From Salipiger abyssi (GTDB taxonomy: Bacteria; Pseudomonadota; Alphaproteobacteria; Rhodobacterales; Rhodobacteraceae), in NCBI RefSeq assembly GCF_001975705.1, contig NZ_CP015089.1, forward strand, positions 1 to 64,000: a DNA stretch of 64,000 nucleotides, written 5' to 3'. The notes beneath the pieces were generated by a model. That model was not told the origin of the DNA. It worked only from the letters and a program-made list of their open reading frames with translations, and ran no database searches. Positions 23,891-44,578 of this stretch are shown piece after piece. The position numbers and the translations under genes were made by a program. Position 1 is the stretch's first letter. Each line of letters starts with the position of its first letter.

Positions 23891-24688
23891 TCAGTTGCGC
23901 CAGCGCAGCAGTTTTTTCTCCAGACGCCCCAGCGCACCGCGTTCGAGCAGCTGCATCGCGATGATGAAGATGATCGCGGTGGCGGCAACCTCGCGCATCC
24001 GCAGCAGGCGGAAGCTGTTGAAGATCGACGCGCCGATCCCGTCGGGCTGGCCGATGGCCTCGACCACGACGACCAGCTTCCAGGACAACGCAAAGGAAAA
24101 GCGCATCGCGGTCAGGAAGGCCGGCACGAGCTGCGGGAAAAGCACCGCGCCGATGCGCACCGCGCGCGGCAGGTGATAGACCTGCGCCATCTCGTCGAGC
24201 GTGGTGTCGCGCGCCTGCACGCTGGAGCGGACGATATTGGCGACGAAGGGCAGCACGGCGATGGTGAGCGCGACAAAGCCGGCAAGCTCGCCCGTCCCGA
24301 CCGCGAGGATCGCGAAGATGATATAGACCGGGTCGGGCACCGCGAGAGCCAGCGCCAGCAGCGGCTGGCAAAAGGCCTCGGCCTTTTCGTTGAGCCCGAT
24401 TAGCACACCCATGGCAGCGCCCACGACCGAGGCGGCGGCGAAGGCCGAGAGGACACGGCCCAGCGTCAGAAAGAAGTCGCTCCAGAAATCGCCGCTGACG
24501 AGGTTGTCGCCCATCGCAACGACGGTGGCGTCGATGGCCGGCACCCAGGGCCGGAACGCGACCGAGCAGGCGTACCATATCAGCAGGATCGAGATCAGCG
24601 CCACGGCTGCGGCGGTCAGTTTCGAAGACCCGAGATCGAAGCGCTTTTTCGCCGCGCCGGGCAGGGTTCGGGTCGCATCCAGGCTCAT
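23891..24688 (-). CDS. ABC transporter permease, taurine/nitrate/aliphatic sulfonate type
   Basis: The 265-aa product is an SsuC/TauC-type inner-membrane permease with about six membrane segments and the ATPase-docking EAA loop around DEMAQVYHLPRAVRIGAVLF. It is the last gene of the operon binding protein-permease-ATPase-permease read from 27290. Two permease genes imply a heterodimeric channel. ATG at 24686-24688 is chosen because it lies just after the ATPase stop and starts the conserved protein. The substrate is not deducible; position next to a pyridine-degradation operon suggests import of a related small anion. Confidence 0.85.
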   Translation of the reverse strand: MSLDATRTLPGAAKKRFDLGSSKLTAAAVALISILLIWYACSVAFRPWVPAIDATVVAMGDNLVSGDFWSDFFLTLGRVLSAFAAASVVGAAMGVLIGLNEKAEAFCQPLLALALAVPDPVYIIFAILAVGTGELAGFVALTIAVLPFVANIVRSSVQARDTTLDEMAQVYHLPRAVRIGAVLFPQLVPAFLTAMRFSFALSWKLVVVVEAIGQPDGIGASIFNSFRLLRMREVAATAIIFIIAMQLLERGALGRLEKKLLRWRN

Positions 24689-24689
24689 A

Positions 24690-25487
24690 TCAGACACTTT
24701 CCTCCTCCTTCTGCACGGCGAGGCCCCAGGGCGCCTGCACCCGGCGGGTGATGTCGGCCACCACGTCACCGATGCGCGCATCGTCATAATCGCGCGGACG
24801 GTCGAGCGGGATCTTGTAGTCCTCAAAGATCTTGGCGGGCCCGCGGGTCAGGATCAGGATGCGGTCGGCGAGATACACCGCCTCGCGGATCGAGTGGGTG
24901 ACAAAGACCACGGTGGCCTCGGTGCGCTGGCAGATGCCCGTCAGCTCTTCGCGCAGGGAGCGCGCGGTGACCTCGTCGAGGGTCGAGAGCGGCTCGTCCA
25001 TCAGGATATAGGCCGGGTCTATCAGCAGGGCGCGGGCGATGGAGACGCGCTGCCGCTGACCGCCGGAAAGCCGCATCGGCCAGGCATCCTTGAACTGCGC
25101 GATGTGAAGGATCGACAGGATCTCGTCGATCCGGTCGTTCCAGGTGTCGCGCGGTACGGAGGAGGCGGCGAGCGCGATTTCGAGATTCTGCCGCACGGTA
25201 CGCCAGGGCAGCAGCCGGTGCGACTGGAACACATAGCCCAGGCGCGGCGGTTTCGAGTTCGGCGTGAAAAGCTCCTGCCCCTCCACCAGCACCCGGCCCC
25301 GGCTGGGCGCGCGCAACCCCGAGATCACGTTCAGCATCGACGACTTCCCGCAACCGGAGGGGCCGAGAATGGCGACGAATTCGCCCTTGCGGATATCGAA
25401 ATCGAGGCGGGCGACGGCCTGGCTGTTGCCGTAGGAGACCCCGAGATCGACGGCCTTCAGCACCGAGGGCTTGCTCTCATTTTCCAT
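24690..25487 (-). CDS. ABC transporter ATP-binding protein, taurine/nitrate type
   Basis: The 265-aa product has Walker A GPSGCGKSS (about 43-51), Q-loop in YVFQSHRLLPWRTV, signature LSGGQRQR, Walker B YILMDEP and the H-loop VVFVTHSIREA. It belongs to the SsuB/TauB subfamily by its neighbours. ATG at 25485-25487 starts the conserved chain (MENESKPSVLKAVDLGVSYG). It lies between the two permease genes, 35 bp after the first and 1 bp before the second. Confidence 0.92.
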   Translation of the reverse strand: MENESKPSVLKAVDLGVSYGNSQAVARLDFDIRKGEFVAILGPSGCGKSSMLNVISGLRAPSRGRVLVEGQELFTPNSKPPRLGYVFQSHRLLPWRTVRQNLEIALAASSVPRDTWNDRIDEILSILHIAQFKDAWPMRLSGGQRQRVSIARALLIDPAYILMDEPLSTLDEVTARSLREELTGICQRTEATVVFVTHSIREAVYLADRILILTRGPAKIFEDYKIPLDRPRDYDDARIGDVVADITRRVQAPWGLAVQKEEESV

Positions 25488-25522
25488 GATATTGTCCTTT
25501 GTTTGGTCGGCGCCGGGGCGCC

Positions 25523-26266
25523 TCACCGCCAGCGGAAGACGAACTTTTCCGCGGTGCGGATCAGGCCGTATTCGGCAAAGAGCACGATCGCCATGAACAC
25601 GAGCAGCCACAGGTGGACCTCGGTCATGAGCATGTAGCTCCAGGCATGTTCGAATTTCGCGCCAAAGCCGCTCTTGGCCGCGCCAAAGATCTCGGCCACC
25701 ACGATCACTTTCCATGCCAGCGCATGGGCGTTGCGCAGGGCGGCGAAGATGAAGGGCGCGACGAAGGGGGCCCAGACATGGCGGATCTGGGCGAAAAGGC
25801 TCAGGTGATAGACGCGCGACATCTCGTCGAGATCGTTATCGGCGCTGGCCAGCCCATCCCGCAGCCCCACGGCCATGTAGGGGAAGGTGATGAAGGCGAC
25901 GACGAGCACATAGCCGGCCTCCGCGCCCTTGAAGATGGCAAGCGCAAGGATCGCGGCGATGGCGCTGGGGGTGCGCAGCGCGGCGGTCACGTAATAGCCC
26001 AGCACCTCGCCCAGAAAGCGCGACCGGGTCATGACGAAGGCCGCGACGAACCCGGCCATGACACCGAGGATCAGCCCGCCCGCGACGCGGCCCAGCGTGA
26101 TGCCGATATTCGACCAGGTTTCCGGGTCGGCCAGGAAATGCGGCAGCTCGCGCGCCACCACGACCGGGCTTTCGATGAAGGTGGTGTTCTGGTGAGCGAT
26201 CATCCAGAGCGGCAACAGCAGGAGGAGGGCCATAAAGGCCCATCCCTGTTTTTGAAGCGTGGTCAT
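25523..26266 (-). CDS. ABC transporter permease, taurine/nitrate type
   Basis: The 247-aa product has six predicted membrane helices (WAFMALLLLLPLWMIAH; ILGVMAGFVAAFVM; WLLVFMAIVLFAEYGLI) and an EAA-type loop with DNDLDEMSRVYHLSLFAQIR. It is the partner of the permease at 23891. The ATG at 26264-26266 is preferred over an upstream in-frame ATG because the first helix follows directly. It lies 22 bp after the binding-protein gene. Confidence 0.85.
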   Translation of the reverse strand: MTTLQKQGWAFMALLLLLPLWMIAHQNTTFIESPVVVARELPHFLADPETWSNIGITLGRVAGGLILGVMAGFVAAFVMTRSRFLGEVLGYYVTAALRTPSAIAAILALAIFKGAEAGYVLVVAFITFPYMAVGLRDGLASADNDLDEMSRVYHLSLFAQIRHVWAPFVAPFIFAALRNAHALAWKVIVVAEIFGAAKSGFGAKFEHAWSYMLMTEVHLWLLVFMAIVLFAEYGLIRTAEKFVFRWR

Positions 26267-26288
26267 GCCGAAACTCGCTGCCTGCCGG

Positions 26289-27290
26289 TCACGGACGCGG
26301 GCCGACATAGTCTTCGAGCGCGACCATCATGCCATCGGGCACGGTTTCGAGCACGTCGCCCTCCTCGGCAAGCTTGTCGAGAAAGCCCATCGCCGCCTCG
26401 CGCTTGTCCGCCGACCAGTCGGTGGTGAAATACTGGTTCGCCGCGCCGTTCGCGATCACCATGTCGAGCACCTCGTCGCTGGTGATGCCGAGTTTCTCGC
26501 GGATATAGGGCTTGCGCAGGATCTCGTAGTCGGTGTCGTCCAGCATCGCGACGGCCTCGTCATAGGCATCGCGCACCGCATAGGCGAGCTCGGGGTTCTC
26601 CTTCAGCCAGTCGCCATGGGCGACCATGTTGGTGATCCAGGGGGCGAAGCCGTTGTTGAACTCGGCGTAATCCGTGTAGGCCTGAAGCAGATAGCGGCCA
26701 TCGGTGGCGACCATCGCCTCGGAGACGAAGCTTTCGAAATCGAAGATCGCGTCGACCTCGCCCTCGGCCAGCAGGTTGACCAGCGCCGCCGGGCCGACCT
26801 GCGACATCTCGTATTCCTCGAGCACGTCGAAGCCGTACATCTCCTGCACGATCAGACGGATGAACATGGTGGTGCCGGAATCGGCGCCGAAATGGCCGAC
26901 CTTCTTGCCCTTTAGATCCTCCGGCGTCTCGGCATCGGAGCCGCCGGGCACGACGATCCCCAGATAGAGGTTGCCGACCGGATAGAAGGCGGTGATATCG
27001 AACCCTTCCTCGCGGGCAAAGGCGACGCCGAGCAGGTCATTGTCCATCGAGATGTCGGCATTGCCGATCAGGAAGTTCTGAAAGATGCCCTCATGGGGCA
27101 GGAACTCGAACGTGCCGTCGAAGCCGTATTTCTCGTCGAGATTTTCGCCCTCGATGATCATCATCGGCACGCCACCAAGGCTGCCGGCCACCGCCTGAAG
27201 GGTGATCTCGGGGAGATCCTGGGCGGCAGCCGGTGCCGCGAGGCCCAGAAGTGCCGAGGCGGCGAGGCCGCGGAAGAAAGTCTGTCTCAT
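26289..27290 (-). CDS. ABC transporter substrate-binding protein, NMT1/TauA type
   Basis: The 333-aa product has a signal peptide (GLAASALLGLAAPAAAQ) and a NMT1/TauA-type periplasmic fold (LPEITLQAVAGSLGGVPMMI; GNADISMDNDLLGVAFAREE; EDLKGKKVGHFGADSGTTMF; LAEGEVDAIFDFESFVSEAM). Such proteins bind taurine, nitrate, aromatic sulfonates or pyrimidines; the ligand here is unknown. It is the first gene of a four-gene importer operon. An AT-rich operator-like site lies about 50 bp upstream and resembles those of the pyridine genes, suggesting coregulation. Confidence 0.88.
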   Translation of the reverse strand: MRQTFFRGLAASALLGLAAPAAAQDLPEITLQAVAGSLGGVPMMIIEGENLDEKYGFDGTFEFLPHEGIFQNFLIGNADISMDNDLLGVAFAREEGFDITAFYPVGNLYLGIVVPGGSDAETPEDLKGKKVGHFGADSGTTMFIRLIVQEMYGFDVLEEYEMSQVGPAALVNLLAEGEVDAIFDFESFVSEAMVATDGRYLLQAYTDYAEFNNGFAPWITNMVAHGDWLKENPELAYAVRDAYDEAVAMLDDTDYEILRKPYIREKLGITSDEVLDMVIANGAANQYFTTDWSADKREAAMGFLDKLAEEGDVLETVPDGMMVALEDYVGPRP

Positions 27291-27330: not shown

Positions 27331-27370
27331 TAGATGAATTTTCTAATTAGTCATTTAAATAATTACTATG
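27331..27370. promoter_or_regulatory. AT-rich operator-like site 1 (upstream of the ABC importer operon)
   Basis: In otherwise GC-rich DNA this stretch holds CTAATTAG (27343-27350) and ATTTAAATAATTA (27353-27365). Read on the minus strand it gives AATTATTTAAATGACTAATT, whose first nine bases match site 4 at 43732-43740. It lies about 50 bp before the binding-protein start. Confidence 0.5.
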
Positions 27371-27522: not shown

Positions 27523-28131
27523 TCAGAGTTTCGGGCGGCGCATCTGAAAAAGCGCGGTGACGGTGGCGAAATCGAGATAGCCGAGGCGGGAGAGCGGCTC
27601 ATAGCGCAGCACGTCGAAGCGGCCGTCTTCGGTCAGACAATCGTCGCGCAGGTGGATCGCCTCGACCCGCGCGAGGATCAGCAGATTGTCCTTGCCCTCA
27701 AGGTCGACGGTCTGCGTCAGCCGGCATTCCAGCGCCGCAGGCACATGCGCGAGGCGCGGGCAGTCGATGGTTTCGCATTCCACCGCCTCAAGGCCGAGCG
27801 CGTCGATCTCGCTCTGCCCGGCGGGGTAGTTCGCCGAAGAGGCATTCAGCGCCTCGCGGTCGGCGGAACCGGCGATGTTCACGCAGAAGACGCCGGTTTC
27901 CACGATATGGCTGTAGCTGTCCTTGCCCTTGGCACGGTCTGGCTTGGCGCCGACGGAGGAGACCACGATCTGCGGCGGGGTATAGGCCACCGCGTTGAAA
28001 AAGGAATGCGGTGCGAGATTGGTCGCGCCGGAGGCGCCGCGCGTGGAGATCCAGGCTATGGGGCGCGGCGAGACGATGGCCGCGAAAGGATCGCGCGGCA
28101 GGCCGGAGCCGTCTTTCGTGTGGTAGAACAC
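27523..28131 (-). CDS. Flavin reductase family protein (DIM6/NTAB type)
   Basis: The 202-aa product belongs to the FMN-binding split-barrel flavin reductases (PRPIAWISTRGASGATNLAP; SFFNAVAYTPPQIVVSSVG; VETGVFCVNIAGSADREALN). These supply reduced FMN to two-component monooxygenases or act as oxidoreductases. I choose the GTG at 28129-28131 (chain starting VFYHTKDGSG) because GAGAGGAG precedes it with good spacing; an upstream in-frame start would overlap nicF. It is the last gene of the nicE-nicD-nicX-nicF operon and could serve one of the two LLM monooxygenases nearby. Confidence 0.85.
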   Translation of the reverse strand: MFYHTKDGSGLPRDPFAAIVSPRPIAWISTRGASGATNLAPHSFFNAVAYTPPQIVVSSVGAKPDRAKGKDSYSHIVETGVFCVNIAGSADREALNASSANYPAGQSEIDALGLEAVECETIDCPRLAHVPAALECRLTQTVDLEGKDNLLILARVEAIHLRDDCLTEDGRFDVLRYEPLSRLGYLDFATVTALFQMRRPKL

Positions 28132-28171
28132 CGGATCGTCTCCTCTCGTTGCGGCGCCGGGCGGCGGTCTG

Positions 28172-28807
28172 TCAGGGGGCCGCCGCACTCAGGCTTTCGA
28201 GCCAGCGCAGGATATCGGAACTGTCTGTGACGTCAGCATATTTCTGGCCCAAATCATAGAGACTGGCCTCGTGCGGCGCCGCAGCGCGATCGGCGCAGCA
28301 ATCCGCCGGCACCAGCACGTTATAGCCTGACTGCACCGCATCGACCACCGTGGCGCGCACGCAGCCGGAGGTGGTGGCGCCGGTGACGATCAGCGTATCG
28401 ACCCCGGCGCCGGTCAACAGCGCGTCCAGCGTGGAGCCGAAGAAGGATGAGGCGCCTTTCTTGACCACCACCGCATCCTCTGGCCGGATGCCCGTCGCGG
28501 CGTCGATCTCGACCAGCCGCGAGCCTTCGAGCAGCGCTTTCATGCCGGCGGATTTCTTCAGCCAGGGCAGATAGTCCAGCTCGCCGGGATGGTAGGCGAT
28601 GGTGGTGAAGATCACCGGACAACCCTGCGACCGGGCCAGATCGCAGATGCGCTTTGTCGCCGCCATCTGCGTGGCGGCATCGGAGGCTGTGGGGTATCGC
28701 GTGTCGGTGAAGCCGTAGGAGAAATCCACCACCACGACGCCGGGGCGTGTACCGCGCGGCACGCTGCCGCCGAACCCTGCGGCCTCGTATATCTGTTCCT
28801 GGGACAT
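28172..28807 (-). CDS. nicF: Maleamate amidohydrolase NicF
   Basis: NicF converts maleamate to maleate and ammonia. The 211-aa product is an isochorismatase-like hydrolase with the Asp-Lys-Cys triad: Asp28 (VVVVDFSYGFTD), Lys116 or Lys117 (VVVKKGASSFFGS) and Cys149 (TGATTSGCVRATVVDA). From memory the P. putida enzyme uses Cys150, in close agreement. It sits directly downstream of nicX in an operon whose other members form the rest of the pathway, which makes nicotinamidase or N-carbamoylsarcosine amidase unlikely. ATG at 28805-28807 follows a weak GAGAG; an earlier in-frame ATG exists. Confidence 0.9.
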   Translation of the reverse strand: MSQEQIYEAAGFGGSVPRGTRPGVVVVDFSYGFTDTRYPTASDAATQMAATKRICDLARSQGCPVIFTTIAYHPGELDYLPWLKKSAGMKALLEGSRLVEIDAATGIRPEDAVVVKKGASSFFGSTLDALLTGAGVDTLIVTGATTSGCVRATVVDAVQSGYNVLVPADCCADRAAAPHEASLYDLGQKYADVTDSSDILRWLESLSAAAP

Positions 28808-28901
28808 GATCGCTCTCATGGAAAGGGACGCCGCGCGTTCCGCCGGCATGGCCGGAGAAACACGCGGGTCAGTCGGGGAGAGATTGCCGCGCGAGCGGCG
28901 C

Positions 28902-29933
28902 CTAGTGCCGCGCCATCTGCATATCCTTCACGACGAGATCGCCGTCGATCACGACGGGCTCGTCATCGAGGAACAGCGAACAGCCGCGCATGGGAATGTC
29001 GAGATGACAGGGCGTGTCGTTCGGCCCGCCCAGCTCATTGTTCGGCCCGGTGGAGAACATCACGTTGCCGTAAAAGCTGCGCGGCTCCATACCCATACCG
29101 CCGGGGAACTCGCCGGGCACCATGCCGTGCCACTTGGCCGCCGGGTTCATGCCCCAGCCGACATGGCTCATACCCATGCCGCGCGGATCGTTGAAACTGT
29201 CCATGTAGGATTTCACCAGTTCCGCATCGAGCCCGCCACGAATGTCGGTCACCCAGCCCTTTTCGATGGTGTAGGTGATCGGTTCGCGCACATACATGTT
29301 CTGCGGCAGCAGGATATCGCCCGGCGCCACCACGATCTGACCGTCGACCCCGTCGTCGTCCCCGCCGGTAAAGACAAAGCCCGAAGGCCAGTGATCCCAG
29401 CGGCCCGGCTCGTCGGTGCAGGCGTATTCGGCGACTGTCGGATAGGTATTGAGCTTGTAGGTCACATCGGTGCCATGCGGAGAGGTGATGCGCATCACCT
29501 TGGCCTTTGCCAGATATTCGGCGCCGATCTCGACCTTTTCGCGCAGCTCCTTGCTGGGCAGCATGCGGGCGAGCAGCTCGGGCGGCTCGACGGCGGTGAG
29601 AATGCGCGTGCCGGCCTCCTGAATGGCGAACTGCTCGGGTGAGAACAGCAGGAAGATGCAGTCGATCAGCATGTCGCAAGTCTTGAGCGCCTCGACCGCG
29701 TCCGGCATCGCGGCCAGCCCGGTCACGCCGACAGCCCAGCCGCCGGTGGGCAGCGGCTCGGGCAGGCGCATGTGATACATCTTTGCCCCCAGCCGCTGAC
29801 CTGCGGCCATGAAGGCATCGGCATAGTCGAGCCGGTCGCTGCCCTGGGTCAGCACGATCAGCTTTTCGCCCTCGTGCACGCCAGACATCCTGAGCTGGTG
29901 CAGGCAGATCTCGGTAAAACTCGCATGGTCCAT
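28902..29933 (-). CDS. nicX: 2,5-Dihydroxypyridine 5,6-dioxygenase NicX
   Basis: NicX opens the ring of 2,5-dihydroxypyridine to N-formylmaleamate using Fe(II) and oxygen. The 343-aa product has the M29-aminopeptidase-like fold. The putative iron ligands His257 (GMSHVGWG), His310 and Asp312 (CHLDIP) have exactly the spacing I recall for P. putida NicX (265, 318, 320). It follows nicD by 35 bp. Together with nicD, nicF and nicE it completes the lower branch to fumarate. Homologues in picolinate degradation (PicD) do the same reaction, so the name fits whatever the upstream substrate is. Confidence 0.93.
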   Translation of the reverse strand: MDHASFTEICLHQLRMSGVHEGEKLIVLTQGSDRLDYADAFMAAGQRLGAKMYHMRLPEPLPTGGWAVGVTGLAAMPDAVEALKTCDMLIDCIFLLFSPEQFAIQEAGTRILTAVEPPELLARMLPSKELREKVEIGAEYLAKAKVMRITSPHGTDVTYKLNTYPTVAEYACTDEPGRWDHWPSGFVFTGGDDDGVDGQIVVAPGDILLPQNMYVREPITYTIEKGWVTDIRGGLDAELVKSYMDSFNDPRGMGMSHVGWGMNPAAKWHGMVPGEFPGGMGMEPRSFYGNVMFSTGPNNELGGPNDTPCHLDIPMRGCSLFLDDEPVVIDGDLVVKDMQMARH

Positions 29934-29968: not shown

Positions 29969-30760
29969 TCAGGCCCTGAAATCCCGGACGGCGATCAGAA
30001 AGCCCTCCAGATCGTCCCAGGGGATCATGTGGCCGGCACCCTCGACGGTGCGGATCTCGATATGCGGGGCGAGGCTGCGGATCTCGGTCACGTCTGCCTC
30101 CTGGATGACCGGCGCACCGCCGGCGACGACCAGCCGCATGGGCAGCGTCAGCTCGGCGAGATCGCCGTGAATGTCGTCTTCGTGGAAGCCGTTAAAGCTG
30201 GCGACGATGGCGTCGGACTGGCAGGTGTGCAGCCACTCGGCGCGCAGCGCGAGCTGCTCGTCGGTCCAGCTCGGGCAATACTGGCGCATGTCCTCCGCCG
30301 AGCAGCCCTTTTCCGCCATGGCGATGCTGTCCACATACCAGGGCAGCGCCGAAGGGTAGGCGCGGCGGCCCGGCCCGCTCACCGGCGGATCGACCAGGAG
30401 CAGGCCCGAAAACGCTCTTGGCGCCATGCGGGCGGCGCGGATCGCGTTGCGCGCCCCCATGGAATGGCCCAGCACAATCGGTGTCTCCAGCCCCGCCGCC
30501 TCGGTCACGGCCACCGCGTCCTCGGCCATCGCGTCGAGCGAATAGTCCAGATCGCCGGCCTGGCTCAGCCCCCTGCCGCGCACGTCGAGGACGTGGACAT
30601 CGAAATCCTCCGCCAGCCGCTCGGCGACGAAACCCCAGGTGATCGCGGGAGAGGTGATGCCGGGGATCAGCAGCATCGCAGGCCCCTGCCCCGGATAATG
30701 CAGCAGATGGTGGCGGATGCCATTGGCGTGGACGTTATAGCCTCTGGGTGTGACGGTCAT
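29969..30760 (-). CDS. nicD: N-formylmaleamate deformylase NicD
   Basis: NicD hydrolyses N-formylmaleamate to maleamate and formate. The 263-aa product is an alpha/beta hydrolase with nucleophile Ser100 (VLGHSMGARN), Asp124 (LLLVDPPVSG) and His244 (EGAGHMIPWDD). This is the same spacing as the Ser101-Asp125-His245 triad I recall from P. putida NicD, offset by one. The oxyanion region LLIPGITSPAITWGF is typical. It is second in the operon, 10 bp after nicE. Confidence 0.92.
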   Translation of the reverse strand: MTVTPRGYNVHANGIRHHLLHYPGQGPAMLLIPGITSPAITWGFVAERLAEDFDVHVLDVRGRGLSQAGDLDYSLDAMAEDAVAVTEAAGLETPIVLGHSMGARNAIRAARMAPRAFSGLLLVDPPVSGPGRRAYPSALPWYVDSIAMAEKGCSAEDMRQYCPSWTDEQLALRAEWLHTCQSDAIVASFNGFHEDDIHGDLAELTLPMRLVVAGGAPVIQEADVTEIRSLAPHIEIRTVEGAGHMIPWDDLEGFLIAVRDFRA

Positions 30761-30770: not shown

Positions 30771-31520
30771 TCAATACGCGCCGGAGAGCAGCGTGCCGCC
30801 GCCGGGCACCCGGGTATCGAGATCGAGCGCGCGCAGCATCGACCAGGTGGTGGCGATGGCGGCGGTGAGGACAGGCTTGCCGGTCAGCGCCTCGACCTGC
30901 GCCACGGCGGCGAGCGAGGGCATCTGCACGCAGGCCGACAGCACCACCGCGTCCACGTCGTCGGTCTTCATCTCCGCGACGATGCCGGGCAGGTTCGCGG
31001 TGTCATGCGCGGCGACGGCGAGATTGTCCTGGATTTCCAGCGCGCGGTAGGCGCTGACCTCGATGCCTTCGTTGCGGATGTATTCCACCACCATCTCGGT
31101 CAGCGGCTTCATGTAGGGCGCGACCACGGCGACCTTTTTCGCCCCCAGCGCGCGGATGCCCTCGACCAGCGCGCCCGCCGAAGTGACCACCGGCGCCGGC
31201 GCGCCATTGTCCTGCGTGACCCTGTGCAGCCGCTCGGACGAGGTGCAGTGATAGCCGTGCCCCATCGACATGATGGCGACCAGGCAGGCATAGCCCATCA
31301 CGTCGACCTTTGCGTCGGACAGCTCGAGCGCGCAGCGGTCGCTGTCGGCATCCATCTTTGCCAGCTCTTCGCGGGTGACATGCTTCATGCGCATGCGCGA
31401 CGAATGAAACGTGAAGCGCTCCGGAGAGACCATCTCGCGCGCCTTCAGCAGCGCCGGAATCTCGGTTTCCATGGTGATGTTGGAACTCGGGACGATCTGC
31501 CCCACGCGGAAATGCGTCAT
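30771..31520 (-). CDS. nicE: Maleate cis-trans isomerase NicE
   Basis: NicE converts maleate to fumarate, which enters the TCA cycle. The 249-aa product belongs to the Asp/Glu racemase superfamily and has both catalytic cysteines, Cys79 (MGYACLVAIM) and Cys197 (LSACVQMPSL). They are 118 residues apart, the same distance as Cys82/Cys200 that I recall for the P. putida enzyme. N terminus: FRVGQIVPSSNITMETEIP. It is the first gene of the operon nicE-nicD-nicX-nicF-flavin reductase; operator-like site 2 lies about 45 bp upstream. Confidence 0.93.
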   Translation of the reverse strand: MTHFRVGQIVPSSNITMETEIPALLKAREMVSPERFTFHSSRMRMKHVTREELAKMDADSDRCALELSDAKVDVMGYACLVAIMSMGHGYHCTSSERLHRVTQDNGAPAPVVTSAGALVEGIRALGAKKVAVVAPYMKPLTEMVVEYIRNEGIEVSAYRALEIQDNLAVAAHDTANLPGIVAEMKTDDVDAVVLSACVQMPSLAAVAQVEALTGKPVLTAAIATTWSMLRALDLDTRVPGGGTLLSGAY

Positions 31521-31565: not shown

Positions 31566-31596
31566 GTAATTAATTACAAGTATGATTAATTAATTT
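31566..31596. promoter_or_regulatory. AT-rich operator-like site 2 (upstream of nicE)
   Basis: Two palindromes lie close together: GTAATTAATTAC (31566-31577, perfect, 12 bp) and ATTAATTAAT (31585-31594, perfect, 10 bp), with centres 18 bp apart. The site is between the nicE start (31520) and the end of the flavin reductase gene at 31702, so it can control only the nic operon. Confidence 0.6.
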
Positions 31597-35438: not shown

Positions 35439-35778
35439 GCCTTACGTCCTTGTCCTCTTAAGTAGACCGGCAACGCCGCCGGATCGCTCTCGCAGTCAAT
35501 CGCAAGCGGGCAAAACGCGCCCCTGTCCTGTTCACCGTAGGAACCGCAAAATGCACTGGTCAATCATGCGACCATAATTTAATTCTACAATTAATTAATT
35601 GCATCTGATATACCTTTTTCACCGGCCGGCGCTGTTTTTTTAAGCAGACAATGAATTACCGCCCGCGTTCCGGGCTGCGGGACGTTGCCGCGGTGCGGGA
35701 CAGGTTCGATGGCTGAGGTCGGGCGCCCGGCACGCAACGGATCCGGGCCGGAACAAGACGATCACAGGGAGACTGAAC
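35439..35778. promoter_or_regulatory. Divergent control region with AT-rich operator-like site 3
   Basis: This 340-bp gap feeds the LLM-binding protein-reductase unit (minus) and the Dpp-type permease operon (plus). It contains a perfect 14-bp palindrome CAATTAATTAATTG (35588-35601) next to ATAATTTAATT (35574-35584). GGGA at about 35767-35770 precedes the TTG start at 35779. No open frame with coding features lies in the gap. Confidence 0.6.
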
Positions 35779-37685: not shown

Positions 37686-38674
37686 TGCCCAGGGACATCT
37701 CCCAGACCGGCCCGATCCTCGAGGTCGAGGGGCTGCACACCATCCTGCGCACCTCCGAAGGCATCGTTCGCGCGGTCACCGATGTGTCAATCACCGTGGG
37801 GCGTGGCGAGATCGTCGGCATCGTGGGCGAATCCGGCTGCGGCAAATCCATGACCGCGATGTCGATCATGGGGCTCGTGCCGACACCGCCCGGCGACATC
37901 ACCGAGGGGCGCATCCTGCTCGACGGCAGCGAACTGCGCGGCCTTGGCCAAAGCGCCTTTCAGAAGGTGCGCGGACGCCGGATCGCGATGATCTTCCAGG
38001 ATCCGATGACGTACCTGAACCCGGTGCTGACCATCGGCACCCAGATCGACGAGATGCTGCGCCAGCACATGGATCTAGATCGCGCCGGGCGCGCGCGGCG
38101 GGTGATCGAGCTGCTGCGCCGGGTCAGGATTCCCGATCCCGAGCGGGTCGCCGCGGCCTATCCGCACCAGCTTTCGGGCGGCATGCGCCAGCGTGTGCTG
38201 ATCGCCACGGCGATCTCCTGCGATCCCGAGCTGATCATCGCCGACGAGCCGACCACCGCGCTCGACGTCACGGTGCAGGCGCAGGTTCTGGAGCTGCTCA
38301 AGGAGATCATCCGCGACATGGACTCCTCGCTGATCCTCATTACCCACGATCTCGGCGTCGTGGCCGAGACCTGCGACCGGGTCTATGTGATGTATGCGGG
38401 CCGGGTGATCGAGGAGGCGCCGATGCAACGGCTCTTCGAGCAGCCCGGCCACCCCTATACACAGGGGCTGCTGGCCTCGATCCTGCGCGCCGACCAGCCG
38501 GTCGAGGAGCTTTACGCGCTCGACGGCACCGTGCCGAACCTGACCGCGCCGCCAAAGGGCTGCGCCTTCTGCGACCGCTGCGCGGTGGTCATGGACATCT
38601 GCCATTCCGAGCTTCCGCCACGGGCCGCGACCGGCCCGCGCGCCTTTGCCGCCTGCTGGAGGATCCCGCAATGA
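37685..38674 (+). CDS. Dipeptide-type ABC transporter ATP-binding protein (DppD-like)
   Basis: The 329-aa product has Walker [11 protein letters not shown]-loop [12 protein letters not shown], signature LSGGMRQR, Walker [14 protein letters not shown] and the C-terminal oligopeptide-transporter Cys motif ([14 protein letters not shown]) that binds an iron-sulfur cluster in relatives. The last residue of Walker A is Met where Ser/Thr-Thr is common, as in many DppD proteins. It overlaps the next ATPase gene by 4 nt. Confidence 0.92.
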
Positions 38675-39672
38675 CCCATCCCCCCCTTCTGACGCTGGAC
38701 GGCGTGTCGAAAACCTATCCCGGCGGCGGGCTGATCTCGCGCCGCCCGCCGGTGCAGGCGGTCAAGGAGGTGAGCTTCGACATCGCGCCCGGCGAGACCC
38801 TGGCTCTGGTCGGCGAATCCGGCTGCGGCAAGTCCACCATCGGGCGGATGATCCTGTCGCTGACCGAGATCACCGAGGGCCGCATCACCTTTGCCGGCAA
38901 GAACCTGATCAACCATTCGGACCGCGAAAAGCAGGAGCTGAAGAAGCGGCTACAGATGATCTTCCAGGATCCCTTCGGCTCGCTCAACCCGCGCAAGACG
39001 ATCCGTTCGATCCTCAGCCAGCCCTTCCTCGTGGCAGGCATCGAGGACTGGGAACCGCGGGTTCTGGAGCTTTTGCGCGTGGTCGGCATGACCCCGCCCG
39101 AGCGTTTTCTGGATCGCATGCCGCACGAGTTCTCGGGCGGGCAGAAGCAGCGCATCGCCATCGCCCGCGCCTTTGCGCTGGGGCCCGAACTGATCGTGGC
39201 GGATGAATGCGTCTCGGCGCTGGACGTGTCGGTGCGCGCGCAGATCCTCAAGCTGATGCGCCGGCTCCAGATCGAGACCGGGGTGTCGTATCTGTTCATC
39301 AGCCACGATCTGGGTGTGGTGCGGTCCATGGCGCAGCGGGTGGCGGTGATGTATCTCGGTCGCATCGTCGAGATCGGCCGGGTCGACGACATCTTCGCGC
39401 GCCCGGCGCACCCCTACACGCAGGCGCTGCTGGCGGCCTCACCGTTGCCCGACCCGAAACGCGCGCATCTCGACGGGCGGCTGCTGCTCGAAGGCGATCT
39501 GCCCTCGCCCAGCAACCCGCCAAGCGGCTGCCGCTTTCACACCCGCTGCCGTTTTGCCCGGCCCGATTGCGCACGAACCGAGCCCGCGTTACACACCCAT
39601 GCCGTGCCTCAACTGGTGGCCTGCCACTATGCGGATGCGCTCGGCACCCCGGAACCGGAGCACACGCATTGA
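38671..39672 (+). CDS. Dipeptide-type ABC transporter ATP-binding protein (DppF-like)
   Basis: The 333-aa product has Walker [11 protein letters not shown]-loop IFQDPFGSLNPRKT, signature FSGGQKQR, Walker B ELIVADECVSALD and the C-terminal Cys motif (CRFHTRCRFARPDC). It completes the two-ATPase importer with the binding protein at 32320. The Cys in Walker B (ADEC instead of ADEP) is a common DppF variant. It overlaps the MFS gene as TTGA. Confidence 0.92.
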   Translation: MTHPPLLTLDGVSKTYPGGGLISRRPPVQAVKEVSFDIAPGETLALVGESGCGKSTIGRMILSLTEITEGRITFAGKNLINHSDREKQELKKRLQMIFQDPFGSLNPRKTIRSILSQPFLVAGIEDWEPRVLELLRVVGMTPPERFLDRMPHEFSGGQKQRIAIARAFALGPELIVADECVSALDVSVRAQILKLMRRLQIETGVSYLFISHDLGVVRSMAQRVAVMYLGRIVEIGRVDDIFARPAHPYTQALLAASPLPDPKRAHLDGRLLLEGDLPSPSNPPSGCRFHTRCRFARPDCARTEPALHTHAVPQLVACHYADALGTPEPEHTH

Positions 39673-41051
39673 GCACGACCGATGCCGGCGCCGACAACGC
39701 GCCGGCCTCCCCCAGCACCGCGACACTGTTTGCCGCCGTGGTGCCGCCTCTCTTTATCGGCATGATCGACCAGACGATTGTCGCCACCGCCCTGCCCGAT
39801 ATCGCCCGCGATCTGGGTGGGTTCGGCACGGTGGGAATGCTGATCACCGCCTATCTTGCCGCCACCGCGATCTCGGCCCCGGTTTACGGGCGCCTGGGCG
39901 ATGCGCTCGGGCGGCGCAAGCTCATGTCCATCGCCATCGTCGTAACCATGCTCGGCAGCCTGCTCTGCGCGATTGCGCCGAATTTCGGCACGCTCGTCGC
40001 TGCGCGAGTCATGCAGGGGTTCGGCGGCGGCGGGCTGATTTCGCTGGCGCAGGCACTGCTCGGACAATATGTCGGGCCGCGCCGCCGGGCCCGCTATCAG
40101 GGCTATCTCGCCGGGATCGCCATTGTCGCCTCCACCTTCGGCCCGGTGGTCGGCGGCTTCGTGACCGGGCATCTGGGCTGGCGCTGGATCTTTGCGCTGA
40201 ACGTGCCGCTGACGCTGCTCGCGCTGCTGCTGATCCAAAGGCTGCCGCCACGCCGCACTCCCAAACACGCCATGGTCTTCGACTGGGCGGGCCTCGCGCT
40301 TTTCGCGGCGCTCACGGTTCTGATCATCGCAGGCTTCGACAGCCTCAAGACCGGCACCGCCGCCCCGGCGCTGCTGGCCTGCGCGGTGATCGTGCTGGGG
40401 CTGCTGGTCTGGCGCGAACGCCGCGCGACGCATCCGCTCTTTCCCGGCGACCTGCTGGCGAACCGCAGCATTTCGCTCTCGGCACTGCTGGCGATGTGCC
40501 ACGGCGCGCTCTATGTGGCGCTGCTGAGCTTCATTCCGATCTATTTCGCCGTTGCCCGCGACCGTGCCGCCGACGAGATCGGCCTGCTGATGCTGCCCAT
40601 CACAGTGGGCATCGGCACTGGCGCTTTTGTCACCGGCCGGCTGATGAGCCGTAGCGGACGCACAACGCTCTATCCGGTGACCGGGCTGATCTGTGCCGCC
40701 GGTCTGCTGCTGTTCCTGTCGCGCAACCTGAGCGAGCTGCCCGATCTGGGGATCTCGCTCGTTTTCATGCTGGTCTCGGCCTGTCTCGGCTCGATCATGG
40801 GCGTGGTGCAGATCACCGTGCAGATGGAGGCGGGCGTCCCCCGGCTCGGCATCGCCACCTCCTCGGTCTCGCTCTCCCGCTCCTTCGGCGCGGTGGCGGG
40901 CACGGCAGTGGCGGGGGTGATCGTGGGGGCCGGGCTCGCGGGCGCGGCCCCCGATCCCGACCGTGTCTTCGGCACGATCTTTCTGGGCGGGGCAGGGTTT
41001 GCCCTGCTGGCCTCGGGTGTCGCCGCCGCGATCCCGCGGCGGCAGCTTTAG
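39669..41051 (+). CDS. MFS drug/proton antiporter-type transporter (DHA2-like)
   Basis: The 460-aa product has the DHA2-type profile with 12-14 membrane helices: VVPPLFIGMIDQTIVATALP, then the motif-A loop YGRLGDALGRRKLMSIAIVV and motif C-like GIAIVASTFGPVVGGFVTGH. It starts with TTG at 39669-39671 overlapping the stop of the DppF-like gene. It may export a toxic intermediate or an unused substrate of the pyridine island, which is inference from its operon. Its end overlaps the convergent LLM gene by 4 bp. Confidence 0.88.
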   Translation: MSTTDAGADNAPASPSTATLFAAVVPPLFIGMIDQTIVATALPDIARDLGGFGTVGMLITAYLAATAISAPVYGRLGDALGRRKLMSIAIVVTMLGSLLCAIAPNFGTLVAARVMQGFGGGGLISLAQALLGQYVGPRRRARYQGYLAGIAIVASTFGPVVGGFVTGHLGWRWIFALNVPLTLLALLLIQRLPPRRTPKHAMVFDWAGLALFAALTVLIIAGFDSLKTGTAAPALLACAVIVLGLLVWRERRATHPLFPGDLLANRSISLSALLAMCHGALYVALLSFIPIYFAVARDRAADEIGLLMLPITVGIGTGAFVTGRLMSRSGRTTLYPVTGLICAAGLLLFLSRNLSELPDLGISLVFMLVSACLGSIMGVVQITVQMEAGVPRLGIATSSVSLSRSFGAVAGTAVAGVIVGAGLAGAAPDPDRVFGTIFLGGAGFALLASGVAAAIPRRQL

Positions 41052-42370
41052 CAACCCCGCGCCAGCCCGAGATTGCCCCGCAGCGTCGTCGCCTCGTATT
41101 CCGCCCGGTAGAGACCCCGGCGTTGCAGCTCGGGCACCACCAGCCGGTTGAAATCGGTGAGGCTGCCCGGGAAGTAGTCCATCAGGAAGATGAACCCGTC
41201 CGCGGCACCGCCCTCGAACCACGCCTGCATCTCGTCGACCAACTGCTCCGGCGTGCCCACGAAACAGGGTGCGCCCTTTGAGGCCTGCCGCTGGTAGAGA
41301 TCGCGGATCGTCAGCCCCTCCTCACGCGCCGATTTCAGGATACGTTCCTGCGCGCTCCTGTTGGCATTGCTCTCGGCAAGATCAGGCAGCATCTCGTCAT
41401 CGCCCAGGGCGTCGAGGTCGATCACGTCGCCCAGCATGTGGCGCAGGAAATCGCGCCCGACCACCGGGTCGATGAGATCGAGCATCTCCTGCCGCTTTTT
41501 GGCAGCGCGACCCGCATCCTCGTCCACGAAGACCGAGATTCCCGGCATGATCACCAGCTCTCCGGGATCACGCCCATAGTCCGGCATCCGGCCCTTGACG
41601 TCCTCGTAGAAGGCCCGCGCCGCCGCCATGTCGGGATGCAGGCCAAAGATCACCTCGGCGGTGCGCGCCGCCATGGCCTTGCCAGGCTCGGAGGCACCCG
41701 CCTGCACGATCACCGTATGTCCCTGCGGCGAGGGCGGCACGTTGAGCGGTCCGCGCACCTGGAAATGCCGCCCCTCGTGATTCAGGACGCTTACCTTGGC
41801 CGGATCGAAGAAGATCCCGCTCTCCTTGTCGCGGGGCAAAGCATCTGGCGCCCAGCCGGTCCAGAGCCCGGCGACCACATCGACAAACTCCTCGGCCCGC
41901 TCGTAACGCTCCGCATGCGGCGGGTGGCGGTCATGGCTGAAGTTCGGCGCCTCGTCCATGTTGGAGGAGGTGACGAGGTTCCAGCCCGCCCGTCCACCGC
42001 TGAGCAGGTCGAGCGAGGCGAATTTTCGGGCGAGCATATAGGGCTCTTCGTAGGTGGTGTTATGCGTCGCCACCAGCCCCACATGCCGTGTCACCATTGC
42101 CAGCGCCGAAAGCAGCGTGACCGGCTCGAACTGCGCCACATAGCGGGTCGAACCGCGCGACAGGATCTCCCAGTTATGGCCGCGCATGGCCATGCTGTCG
42201 GCCAGAAAGAGCAGGTCGAAGAGACCGCACTCGGCCTCTCGTGCCAGCTCCGCGGCCTGCTCGATATTGGCGCCCAGATCGGCAACGGCGCCGGGGTGAC
42301 GCCAACCCGCCACATTGGCCCCGGTCGCCGTGGCATAGAGCCCCAGATGTATCTTGCGGTCGGTCCTCAT
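41048..42370 (-). CDS. LLM-class flavin-dependent monooxygenase (NtaA/SnaA/DszA family), copy 2
   Basis: The 440-aa product is clearly related to the protein at 34077 (shared ARKFASLD, SGGRxGWN, YVAQFEPVTLLSALAMVTRH, VIVQAGASEPGKAMAARTAE, NRLVVPELQRRGLYRAEYEA). It needs FMNH2 from one of the two flavin reductases in the island. It is encoded 23 bp after the NicC-like FAD monooxygenase, so the two oxygenases are likely made together and act on connected intermediates. The substrate is unknown; pyridine-ring or N-substituent oxidation are reasonable guesses. Confidence 0.87.
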   Translation of the reverse strand: MRTDRKIHLGLYATATGANVAGWRHPGAVADLGANIEQAAELAREAECGLFDLLFLADSMAMRGHNWEILSRGSTRYVAQFEPVTLLSALAMVTRHVGLVATHNTTYEEPYMLARKFASLDLLSGGRAGWNLVTSSNMDEAPNFSHDRHPPHAERYERAEEFVDVVAGLWTGWAPDALPRDKESGIFFDPAKVSVLNHEGRHFQVRGPLNVPPSPQGHTVIVQAGASEPGKAMAARTAEVIFGLHPDMAAARAFYEDVKGRMPDYGRDPGELVIMPGISVFVDEDAGRAAKKRQEMLDLIDPVVGRDFLRHMLGDVIDLDALGDDEMLPDLAESNANRSAQERILKSAREEGLTIRDLYQRQASKGAPCFVGTPEQLVDEMQAWFEGGAADGFIFLMDYFPGSLTDFNRLVVPELQRRGLYRAEYEATTLRGNLGLARGC

Positions 42371-42393: not shown

Positions 42394-43617
42394 TCAGGCC
42401 GAGGCGCCGACGGCGCCGGCCCTGGGCTGTGTCTGCGCCGTCCCAAAGGCGCGCGGATCGTAGTCGTAGACCCAGTCGGTATTGATCCCCGTGGTGCGCG
42501 GATCCTCCTTGGCGCGGCGGGCATATTCCGCATCCCGCGCCGCCATCTCCTCCTCGGTCGGCAGATGGTAGGTGCGACCGCGCTCGCGCGCCTCCAGCTG
42601 CACCCGCGAACAGCGCGGCAGGCGTTCCTGCTCGTAGCGCTTCAGCGCCAGGTCGATATCGTTCGGCGAGGCGGCCAGCGCATCGGAGAGCACCAGCGCA
42701 TCCTCGATCGCCATCGCCGCGCCCTGCGACAGGAAGGGCAGCATCGGGTGACAGGCATCGCCCAGGAGCGCCACGCGGCCCTTGACCCAGCTCTGCATCG
42801 GATCGCGATCGAAGAGCCCCCAGCTATAGACCTCGTCCACCTTCGAAAACAGCGTCTGAAGCGAGCTGTGCCAGCCCTCGAAATCCGCCAGCAGCGCCTC
42901 TTTCGTGCTGCGCGTGCTCCAGCTCTCGGCGACCCATTCCTCGGCCTCGCGCACGGCGACGATGTTCACCATGTCACCGCCCTTGACGTAATAGGTCACC
43001 ACATGGCCGTTCGGCCCCATCCAGAAGGTGCTGTCGGGATTGACGAAATCCACCACGCCGCCGGTCGGCACCAGCGCGCGGTAGCACATGTGCCCGGTCC
43101 AGCGCACCTCGGTCTCGGCAAAGAGCGAGCCACGTACCACCGAACGCACCCCGTCGGCGCCGATCACCAGATCCGCCTCGGCGCTTTCGCCATCGGTGAA
43201 ATGCACCACCGCACCTTTGCCCCGCGGCTCGACCCCGCTGCAATGATAGCCGAAACGGCAGCGCTCGGGCGGGATCTGGTCGGTGAAGAGATCGAGCAGA
43301 TCGGCGCGGTGGACATGGATGAACGGCGCCTCATAGTGGTTGCGGAACTCCTCGCCGAGCGGGATCCGGAAGTTTTCGCGCGCGCTCTGCCAGTTCCGGC
43401 CGACCACCGCCTCGGGATAGAACGCCTTGTCGAGAAAGCGCTCGTAGAGCCCCATCCCCTTGATCGCCTTCACCGCGTTCGGCGTCATCTGCACACCGGC
43501 CCCGACCTCGCCAAAGGCCTCTGCCTGCTCGTAAATCGTGACATCGAACCCCTTGCGCAATAGGCTCTGCCCGAGCGCGGCACCACCGATTCCCCCACCA
43601 ACAATCGCGATCTTCAT
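42394..43617 (-). CDS. NicC-like FAD-dependent aromatic monooxygenase
   Basis: The 407-aa product is a class A flavoprotein hydroxylase with GxGxxG (AIVGGGIGGAALGQSLL), DG motif (DLVIGADGVRSVVRG) and GD motif (VALLGDACHPMLPFLSQGAA). In context it could be 6-hydroxynicotinate 3-monooxygenase, giving 2,5-dihydroxypyridine for NicX. However, compared from memory with P. putida NicC, His47 is Gln43, and the segment after GDACHPM reads LPFLSQG rather than KPHMAQG. These are active-site positions, so the substrate may differ. Related salicylate hydroxylases are an alternative. ATG at 43615-43617 starts the nucleotide-binding fold. It heads a two-gene operon. Confidence 0.8.
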   Translation of the reverse strand: MKIAIVGGGIGGAALGQSLLRKGFDVTIYEQAEAFGEVGAGVQMTPNAVKAIKGMGLYERFLDKAFYPEAVVGRNWQSARENFRIPLGEEFRNHYEAPFIHVHRADLLDLFTDQIPPERCRFGYHCSGVEPRGKGAVVHFTDGESAEADLVIGADGVRSVVRGSLFAETEVRWTGHMCYRALVPTGGVVDFVNPDSTFWMGPNGHVVTYYVKGGDMVNIVAVREAEEWVAESWSTRSTKEALLADFEGWHSSLQTLFSKVDEVYSWGLFDRDPMQSWVKGRVALLGDACHPMLPFLSQGAAMAIEDALVLSDALAASPNDIDLALKRYEQERLPRCSRVQLEARERGRTYHLPTEEEMAARDAEYARRAKEDPRTTGINTDWVYDYDPRAFGTAQTQPRAGAVGASA

Positions 43618-43918
43618 TCTCTGCGTCCTTCCACTTCTGTCCTGGCAGTCCCGGGTCGCCCCCGGCGTCCGGCGCACCGGCCCGCGCCCGCAAAAGGGCG
43701 GGCCGGATGGCCGCAATCATCGCTTGGTAGCAATTATTTAATTATTCGTCTAATTTATTTTTTGCCAGAACGTCATTCTCTTGATGCCTTCCACCATTCG
43801 ATGCGTTATTCGCCATCAACAGGGCGCCGGCGCCTCAGATCCCGGCACTGCACGGAAATCGCTCCGCTCATGCCGCATCCATGCTGAAGCCGGACCAGAT
43901 CAGGGACAGAATCGAGCC
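43618..43918. promoter_or_regulatory. Divergent control region with AT-rich operator-like site 4
   Basis: The 301-bp gap separates the NicC-like operon (minus) from the TetR gene (plus). The stretch 43731-43760 is almost pure A/T and contains CAATTATTTAATTATTCG followed by TCTAATTTATTTTTTG, like sites 1-3. GC-rich CGCCCGCAAAAGGGCG-type sequence lies at about 43683-43702. The divergent layout next to a regulator gene fits an operator. Confidence 0.55.
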
Positions 43919-44578
43919 ATGACACGAAAAAGAAAGGGGCCGGGGCGGCCGGAAGGGCGCTCGACCTTGCCCGACGAAATTCTCGACGTCGCCGAGACCA
44001 TGTTCGCCGACCTCGGCTATGCGGGAACCTCGCTGCGTCAGGTGGCGGAAACGGTCCAGGCCAATCCGGCGCTGATCAACTACTACTATTCCAACAAGGA
44101 AAACCTGTTCGGCGCGGTGTTTCTGCGGCGCGGCCTGAAGATCGCCGAAGAGCGCATGCAGCGCCTCGCCGAGCTGGAAGAAGGCGGTGCCTACAGCGTC
44201 GAGCAGCTCGTCCGCGCCTTCCTCGAACCCTCCGAGCGACTGCGCGACACCAAGCAGGGCCGGTCCTTCCTGCGGCTGCACGCGCGGCTGCACATGGAAC
44301 CCGAAGAGATCTCCTATGAGCTGCGGCGCCGGGTCTATCAGGAGTCGACCCTCGCCTATGCCAGCGCCTTCGAGCGGCTGCTGCCCGACGTTCCCAGCGC
44401 AACGATCTATCACAAGATCTCGCTGATGATCGGCTCTTATCTCTACGCCTTTTCCGACACCAACCGCCTTCAGGAACTGTCGGACCCCGAAGAGATCAGC
44501 GCCGCCCGCGAACACCTGCTGACCGACACGGTGAATTTCGTCACCGCAGGCATGCTCGCCGGGCACGAACCGGGCTGA
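43919..44578 (+). CDS. TetR family transcriptional regulator
   Basis: The 219-aa product has an N-terminal TetR helix-turn-helix (LDVAETMFADLGYAGTSLRQ, then NPALINYYYSNKENLFGAVF) and a helical C-terminal ligand-binding domain (about residues 80-210). It is divergent from the NicC-like operon and next to operator-like site 4, so it is the only candidate in the island for a dedicated repressor. P. putida uses a TetR protein, NicS, for nicotinate genes, but I cannot show orthology. ATG at 43919 is chosen; the basic MTRKRKGPGRPEGRS start is typical. Confidence 0.88.
   Translation: MTRKRKGPGRPEGRSTLPDEILDVAETMFADLGYAGTSLRQVAETVQANPALINYYYSNKENLFGAVFLRRGLKIAEERMQRLAELEEGGAYSVEQLVRAFLEPSERLRDTKQGRSFLRLHARLHMEPEEISYELRRRVYQESTLAYASAFERLLPDVPSATIYHKISLMIGSYLYAFSDTNRLQELSDPEEISAAREHLLTDTVNFVTAGMLAGHEPG

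Follow-up and report, generated by a model that had tools for sequence, protein, structure and literature searches.

A TetR-linked 2,5-dihydroxypyridine gene island of Salipiger abyssi with a NicC-like monooxygenase apart from NicC

Genes of the island and the lower pathway

The window, meaning the whole stretch of DNA that was analysed, is the first 64 kb (64,000 nucleotides, G+C 65.4%) of contig C1 (NZ_CP015089.1, 131,420 bases) in the 5.26-Mb genome of Salipiger abyssi. An island of 20 genes, the TetR regulator counted, extends here from TauC2 (position 23891) to TetR (44578), and all genes named in it have open frames at the positions listed in Table 1. The island encodes enzymes for the degradation of 2,5-dihydroxypyridine (2,5-DHP), a flavin adenine dinucleotide (FAD) monooxygenase related to NicC and designated NicC', two luciferase-like monooxygenases of the NtaA family (LLM1 and LLM2), two flavin reductases of PF01613 (FlvR1 and FlvR2), a taurine-type (SsuA/Tau) and a Dpp-type importer, the latter with its full A-B-C-D-F set, and a major facilitator superfamily (MFS) pump. 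This inventory, including the places of the two importers and the pump, is as a preliminary description of the DNA had given it.

The lower pathway genes stand in the order nicE, nicD, nicX, nicF with gaps of 10-52 bases, and nicF is overlapped by FlvR1. NicX, NicE and NicF align with solved enzymes across nearly their entire length (7cn3, 4fq7 and 4l07, the last deposited as an isochorismatase-family hydrolase), and NicD is an alpha/beta hydrolase. Key residues were inspected one by one in NicX, which retains L104, E177, H189, H265, S302, H318 and D320; by the residue roles given in the accessible text of PMC7910607, that set covers the substrate residues (E177, H189) together with all four iron ligands. 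The position of H105 is occupied by F, and a reading of this as an altered active site was rejected, since F is fixed in 80/80 relatives; the variant H105F is also described to have retained activity (PMC7910607, same excerpt). These relatives are the 80 top-ranking loci among the 572 or more found by the window NicX, each examined up to 10 kb on either side of nicX, with 12 of the 80 stretches shorter than 20 kb. Judged by its sequences, nicE-D-X-F is a complete predicted pathway from 2,5-DHP to fumarate, in line with the earlier claim that it is intact.

NicC' and the search for other entry enzymes

NicC' belongs to PF01494 and, as a group A FAD monooxygenase, accompanies nicX where no dehydrogenase is present; its probable start at 43617 makes the gene shorter than its reading frame. 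It matches the structures of Pseudomonas putida KT2440 NicC (5eow, E 5.3e-63; 8uiq, E 1.1e-63), while tropone 2-monooxygenase scores highest among solved structures and 3-hydroxybenzoate 6-monooxygenase is its best NCBIfam model, at 307.5 bits against a cut-off of 459. Six positions were compared, H47, C202, H211, Y215, Y225 and H302, which, with their numbering, follow work on KT2440 NicC as active-site positions; the Q for H by which 8uiq differs from 5eow at the first of them fits this numbering. H47, C202, Y225 and H302 are changed in the window NicC', and only H211 and Y215 are kept. The six NicC residues are present in 63/63 nicX-linked NicC rows, one of which (L018) contains two stops in its frame, shown as X. 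All 12 NicC' rows, window included, have Q, D/E/T/V, H, Y, N and F at the same sites, a count that omits the L052 NicC' (241 residues, running off its locus). The altered active site noticed in the preliminary description is thus upheld.

Sorted by NicC type, the 80 nicX loci comprise 63 with a NicC-like protein at 28-39% identity to the window NicC', seven with NicC' at 51-75% and 10 with neither, among which nicA and nicB occur together in two and nicA in one. Further NicC' proteins are encoded on four plasmids (L109-L112) and in genome G226 (L135). In a tree of 24 rows, KT2440 NicC is placed with the NicCs, of which ten were sampled (100/100), and with none of the NicC' rows; the latter stand apart at 83/95, which is not a strong fork, and the window NicC' clusters with six from Rhodobacterales and one from Methylobacterium (98/98). 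The two kinds differ in company as well. Beside nicX, NicC' was accompanied by nicA in 0/10 other loci, whereas 58/63 NicC loci have both nicA and nicB (Fisher p 4.8e-9, with rows related to one another), and L022, among the five NicC loci that lack nicAB, is a fragment of 9 kb. Because G226 carries both kinds, a canonical nicAB-NicC cluster (L146) on one contig and a NicC'-Tau-TetR module (L135) on another, redundancy of NicC and NicC' is unlikely. The preliminary description had the two LLMs standing in for the usual entry enzymes. This is not borne out: NicC' has a different active site and is joined to nicX without nicA in 10/10 loci, nine of them without an LLM in the examined stretch, and the replacement would therefore be NicC', not the LLMs.

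TetR, the Tau importer, NicC' and nicEDXF recur together, in varying order, in Celeribacter (L070), a metagenome-assembled genome (L011), Pseudorhodobacter (L052) and a Paracoccus yeei plasmid (L109). An Azospirillum plasmid (L111) combines NicC' and nicEDXF with a branched-chain-type importer, and a Caballeronia plasmid (L112) combines them with an MFS pump and TetR. No other annotated oxygenase was found in the compact NicC' clusters, suggesting that a single monooxygenation step lies between the imported compound and 2,5-DHP. A separate observation concerns Bradyrhizobium sp. NFR13, where a Rieske oxygenase with a VanA-type C-terminus and a ferredoxin-domain protein (L147 8120-10136, on the contig of L074) lie directly upstream of a NicC' (54%) beside nicX, as another accessory oxygenase on the same core. 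The TetR-Tau-NicC' module was also seen on a Falsirhodobacter algicola plasmid (L110), with nicX unmatched on this 97.6-kb record, the other replicons not being searched.

Other entry enzymes were sought through the molybdopterin dehydrogenase domain PF20256, which occurs at 16 places in the genome, on C2, C3, C5 and C7, and not on C1; in the stretches around all 16, the large proteins were compared with nic-cluster proteins. Three of the genome's molybdenum hydroxylases are two-subunit enzymes of NicAB layout. Their large subunits (726-772 aa) are 25.7-28.5% identical to a Rhizobium NicB (L020) over about 700 residues and at most 32.1% to any nic-cluster NicB, whereas the 39 nic-cluster NicBs, that of L020 counted, have at least 1138 aa and are 47-100% identical to L020 NicB; the small subunits reach 42-49% to nic-cluster NicA. 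Short pieces of other enzymes match NicB at up to 39% over 130 residues. A NicB match in L052 (37%, 305 residues) was set aside as a cytochrome c domain. A NicB orthologue is accordingly taken to be absent at the 16 places, on the comparison of these proteins, and another enzyme could still do the step. The earlier statement that the window lacks nicAB holds, and the search elsewhere in the genome gave three NicAB-like enzymes that are not orthologues. The picolinate-type decarboxylase was likewise missing from the ORFs scanned: an amidohydrolase of PicC type (PF04909) was absent from the 30 window open reading frames (ORFs) given to Pfam, the rest of the window not being scanned, and no PicC-like NCBIfam match was shown for the 20 island ORFs.

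Candidate substrates of NicC' are 6-hydroxynicotinate, 5-hydroxypicolinate, 3-hydroxypyridine and 2-hydroxypyridine. The residues at the six sites speak against the first, as far as they predict specificity, and it is proposed that NicC' would form 2,5-DHP from another hydroxypyridine, with 5-hydroxypicolinate as first guess. Hydroxylation of 3-hydroxypyridine (or 2-hydroxypyridine) without decarboxylation, in the manner of 3-hydroxybenzoate 6-hydroxylase on its own substrate, is considered rather unlikely. Para hydroxylation relative to the OH group is established chemistry of group A monooxygenases and would yield 2,5-DHP from 3-hydroxypyridine, and the top NCBIfam model points the same way. 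Against this, vanillate 1-hydroxylase, which is decarboxylative and the sole such relative aligned at these sites, shares Q and N with NicC', although the top-scoring solved match remains tropone 2-monooxygenase, and the SsuA/Tau-type importer hints at an acid substrate.

The putative operator, the LLM/Dpp block and the surroundings

The probable start of TetR is 43919, the reading frame being longer than the gene. An AT-rich palindrome is found beside TetR in relatives, as an exact TTAATTA-N6-TAATTAA in L070 and at 12-13/14 in L011, L047, L052, L109 and L110; in the single stretch tried of L135 the best palindrome had 8/14, which is no site. With at most two mismatches the palindrome occurs at four places in the window and in none of 100 shuffles, and at five places genome-wide, four of which are the four promoter regions of the island. 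The consensus was written with the window sites already seen and equals the L070 site (14/14). With a matrix built from six relatives, window left out, the island's four sites still ranked at the top (39.1, 33.2, 32.8 and 27.1; next 19.5). A reversed-pattern control also gave five places genome-wide, and in the window the same four places shifted by two bases; as the site is an AT-rich repeat this control is not independent, and the shuffles and the relatives-only matrix were used in its place. Scans for promoters and terminators gave matches at chance level only.

By gene direction the island falls into six units, namely TetR, NicC'-LLM2, DppBCDF-MFS, LLM1-DppA-FlvR2, nicEDXF-FlvR1 and SBP1-tau, and the four putative sites could suffice for all of its genes. 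Among the seven NicC' loci of the 80, five reach an operator score of 12/14. The TetR-type NicS of P. putida presumably answers to nicotinate or 6-hydroxynicotinate.

Both LLMs pass the 279.7-bit cut-off of TIGR03860 (NtaA/DmoA subfamily; Table 1) and are 47% identical to each other, and the nearest solved structure of either is YtnJ, which we take to be the same Bacillus subtilis protein as CmoJ. The best relative of LLM2 was 54% identical among candidates scored in 295 family genomes. FlvR2 is the probable partner of the LLMs. The NCBIfam matches shown for the Dpp-type importer are all below their cut-offs. A comparable set of genes was seen in Chelativorans sp. J32, where LLM1 (82%), DppA (64%), DppB (72%), DppC (79%), MFS (47%) and NicC' (51%) stand beside nicEDXF and are followed by two flavin-reductase-like genes and a Dpp-type double ATPase in fused form, the whole set fitting in roughly 16 kb. 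LLM1 is otherwise rare: in the order of Chelativorans it had a match in 1/297 genomes at E <= 1e-190, namely J32, in the genus Chelativorans in 2/16 genomes at E <= 1e-150 (J32 at 81%, the other at 54%), and in the class in 5/385 genomes at E <= 1e-150, the genome under study counted and the others at no more than 61%. A substrate could not be read from the context of LLM1, the loci of its relatives being mixed and uninformative.

The block of LLM, Dpp and FlvR2 genes might have another task, such as scavenging of S or N from S- or N-alkyl compounds, and merely adjoin the pyridine genes. NtaA-type LLMs are common (654/72,556 plasmid records at E <= 1e-80), one stands with a Dpp-type importer where nicX is not annotated (L116), and CmoJ cleaves S-alkylcysteine sulfoxides according to the part of PMC10863075 at hand. 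This explanation is nevertheless judged fairly improbable, as the LLM/Dpp promoter bears the island operator that is seen only once elsewhere in the genome, LLM2 lies 23 bases behind NicC' on the same strand, and a second family, with the order rearranged, also joins LLM1 and Dpp to nicEDXF and a NicC'. The LLM1/Dpp block is a rare add-on that, on the strength of this near-exclusive operator, would nevertheless belong to the island.

Table 1. Positions of the island genes and putative operators in the window
Feature	Position	Strand	Basis
TauC2, permease of SsuA/Tau-type importer	23891..24688	-	ORF 23891-24826, likely start 24688; NCBIfam SaoP/SsuC/NtrB below cut-off
TauB, ATPase of SsuA/Tau-type importer	24690..25487	-	likely start 25487; 72-86% in L011, L047, L052, L070
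TauC1, second Tau-type permease	25523..26308	-	64-87% in L011, L047, L052, L070
SBP1, SsuA-like substrate-binding protein	26289..27290	-	TIGR01728 38.9 bits, below cut-off; 76-88% in L011, L047, L052, L070
Putative operator 4	27343..27362	.	12/14; upstream of SBP1-tau
FlvR1, flavin-reductase-like protein downstream of nicF	27523..28188	-	PF01613, E 4.6e-20
NicF, maleamate amidohydrolase	28172..28849	-	PF00857; PDB 4l07 E 1.3e-102
NicX, 2,5-dihydroxypyridine 5,6-dioxygenase	28902..29933	-	PDB 7cn3 (KT2440 NicX) E 4.7e-95; Fe ligands kept
NicD, N-formylmaleamate deformylase	29969..30760	-	alpha/beta hydrolase; operon position
NicE, maleate isomerase	30771..31520	-	PDB 4fq7 E 1.2e-130
Putative operator 3	31570..31589	.	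13/14; upstream of nicE
FlvR2, RutF/HpaC-like flavin mononucleotide (FMN) reductase	31702..32247	-	PF01613 E 2.2e-32; RutF 93.7 bits, below cut-off
DppA-like substrate-binding protein	32320..34008	-	NikA/Opp4A/GsiB models below cut-off; 64% in Chelativorans
LLM1, NtaA/DmoA-family FMN monooxygenase	34077..35438	-	TIGR03860 565.2 bits; 82% in Chelativorans J32
Putative operator 2	35579..35598	.	13/14; between divergent LLM1-DppA-FlvR2 and DppBCDF-MFS
DppB permease	35779..36819	+	72% in Chelativorans
DppC permease	36816..37685	+	79% in Chelativorans
DppD ATPase	37685..38674	+	ORF 37574-38674, likely start 37685
DppF ATPase	38671..39672	+	NCBIfam, below cut-off
MFS efflux pump, DHA2/EmrB-like	39672..41051	+	TIGR00711 156.3 bits, below cut-off; start uncertain, frame open from 39207
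LLM2, second NtaA/DmoA-family monooxygenase	41048..42370	-	TIGR03860 520.5 bits; 23 bases downstream of NicC'
NicC', FAD monooxygenase apart from NicC	42394..43617	-	Q/D/H/Y/N/F at NicC H47/C202/H211/Y215/Y225/H302
Putative operator 1	43738..43757	.	13/14; between TetR and NicC'-LLM2
TetR-family regulator	43919..44578	+	PF00440 + PF17939; 55-63% in NicC'/Tau loci L011, L047, L052, L070

Contig C1 encodes a ParA-type ATPase, a ParB/RepB-like protein and a RepC replication protein and is therefore probably a repABC replicon; it additionally bears flagellar genes (flhA-, fliR- and flhB-like, and flagellin), identified by reading. On one side the island is flanked by flagellar-type genes, MotB-like at 15314 and MotA-like at 22322 (the latter by reading), and on the other by thiC. 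A candidate thiamine pyrophosphate riboswitch lies ahead of thiC on the + strand (44862-44992; 50.8 bits, E 5.1e-9), slightly below the Rfam gathering score of 54.3 and missed by the default window scan. No NicX match was found in 19 other genomes of the genus at E <= 1e-40, for which reason the island was probably acquired. The importer, TetR and FlvR1 have their nearest relatives in Rhodobacterales (SBP1 88% in L011, TauB 86% in L070, TetR 63% in L047, FlvR1 82% in L069 and L070), and TauC2 is 63-77% identical in its relatives (blastp). As these genes and NicC' are closest to Rhodobacterales but LLM1, among the loci seen, to Chelativorans, two modules seem to be combined in the island as a mosaic.

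Proposed route and known systems

Rather probably, the island forms a catabolic regulon under TetR control through which some hydroxypyridine, 6-hydroxynicotinate excepted, enters the 2,5-DHP pathway. In its core, the SsuA/Tau-type importer would take in a small hydroxypyridine, most likely a carboxylate, and NicC', a single-component FAD monooxygenase, would attack the carbon para to the ring OH to give 2,5-DHP, by decarboxylative hydroxylation if the substrate is 5-hydroxypicolinate, or with 3-hydroxypyridine as the alternative. NicX would then open the ring to N-formylmaleamate, NicD remove formate, NicF remove ammonia and NicE form fumarate. In the add-on, seen in the window and partly in Chelativorans, DppABCDF would import a larger substituted pyridine, from which LLM1 and LLM2, with reduced FMN (FMNH2) from FlvR2 and perhaps FlvR1, might oxidatively remove the substituent to yield the NicC' substrate, and the MFS pump would export surplus. 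All transcription units would be coupled by TetR on the four palindromes, which would be freed by an inducer; this might be the first hydroxypyridine or the substrate itself. The lower part of this route is well founded and the LLM/NicC' middle is a reasoned guess. A more specific version, in which an N- or S-substituted pyridine (e.g. a conjugate taken up by Dpp) is processed by the two LLMs one after the other to give a hydroxypyridine acid for an undescribed NicC-like clade and hence 2,5-DHP, the block having been recruited by gaining a TetR operator, is put forward tentatively and is less likely than the regulon itself. Serial LLM action has a parallel in CmoJ, a C-S cleaving relative of DszA, which acts after the flavoenzyme CmoO in the portion of PMC10863075 available.

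Several observations weigh against this proposal. The NicC'-Tau combination is present without nicX on the same record (L110) or the same contig (L135). FlvR1, at 61-82% in nine nicX loci (L021, L055, L065, L067, L069, L070, L073, L077 and L079), follows nicF where no LLM is near in the examined stretches, and for this reason FlvR1 may not serve the LLMs. LLM1 occurs in 1/80 nicX loci (Chelativorans) and an LLM2 orthologue in 0/80, the only LLM2 match being the Chelativorans LLM1 gene at 47%; no LLM was found in the other 79 nicX loci, in L109-L112 or in L135. The LLM pair as a general conserved partner of nicXDFE, a co-occurrence for which the preliminary description had proposed a search, was rejected on these counts, and the tie between LLMs and pyridine rests on two genomes and the operator. 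In the Chelativorans LLM1/DppB promoter the best palindrome has only 9/14. A 12/14 site is also present in 6/73 nicX loci without NicC', each time 49-53 bases ahead of nicE, and consequently the palindrome, so far as its distribution tells, would be an operator of 2,5-DHP clusters beyond those with NicC' and says nothing of the substrate.

Plain degradation of nicotinate or 6-hydroxynicotinate, with NicC' as a divergent NicC that matches the KT2440 structures and keeps H211 and Y215, and with 6-hydroxynicotinate taken up ready-made or made by another molybdenum hydroxylase such as the three with NicA-like small subunits, is distinctly unlikely in view of the four changed residues that every nicX-linked NicC keeps, the short and divergent large subunits, and the possession of both NicC and NicC' by G226.

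The regulon reading, with a substrate other than 6-hydroxynicotinate, bears on annotation. Where a NicC-like gene stands in a nicX cluster, nicotinate degradation is readily assumed; by the residue set a second type of entry enzyme, which does without nicotinate dehydrogenase, can be told apart, and nicXDFE is therefore no proof of growth on nicotinate. The operator offers a means to find members of such regulons, and here it connects pyridine breakdown with two LLMs, whose family has few known substrates, in a way that makes their function testable.

The nic pathway of P. putida KT2440 is alike in nicX, nicD, nicF and nicE, in 2,5-DHP as hub and in a NicC-type flavoprotein ahead of it. The island differs in lacking nicAB, in a NicC' that stands apart with another active site, and in the extra ABC (ATP-binding cassette) importers, two LLMs and two flavin reductases. 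The pic pathway of Alcaligenes faecalis JQ135 leads from 2,5-DHP to fumarate by the same four enzymes (picD-G; PMC10142695, in part). It differs from the island, where no PicC-type amidohydrolase decarboxylase was found in the scanned ORFs, PicA and PicB not being searched by their own sequences. HpaM is reportedly a 5-hydroxypicolinate monooxygenase. Another, HpoO, is named in print (PMC6692525, as far as its accessible text goes), and the step of NicC' may therefore be known already under another name; likened by description only, HpoO or HpaM would likewise be a group A flavoprotein giving 2,5-DHP in one step. Of the undescribed non-nicotinate upper route inferred in the preliminary description, the non-nicotinate part is favoured by the missing nicAB, the four of six changed residues in NicC' and the LLM/Dpp genes with a nic operator, and the word undescribed may have to be withdrawn in part, given HpoO.

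The two-component LLMs NtaA, DszA and YtnJ (CmoJ) resemble those of the island in passing TIGR03860 and in a flavin reductase and a Dpp-type importer nearby, and differ in that the island LLMs are joined to a 2,5-DHP regulon. To our knowledge, none of the described members of this group supplies a 2,5-DHP pathway. In the open-licence literature, most subscription journals being outside the search, neither an LLM connected with 2,5-DHP breakdown nor an LLM/Dpp block linked by an operator was found described. The closest locus is that of Chelativorans sp. J32 (L017, L134), which shares nicEDXF, MFS, NicC', DppC, DppB, LLM1, DppA, a double ATPase and two flavin-reductase-like genes, and differs in having no LLM2 orthologue, no Tau-type importer seen adjacent, another gene order, LLM1/DppB without a matching operator, and further oxidoreductases. 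Taken against these systems the lower pathway is known, the comparison adds the NicC' residue set and its freedom from nicAB, and nothing in the island is less expected than its operator-linked LLM/Dpp block.

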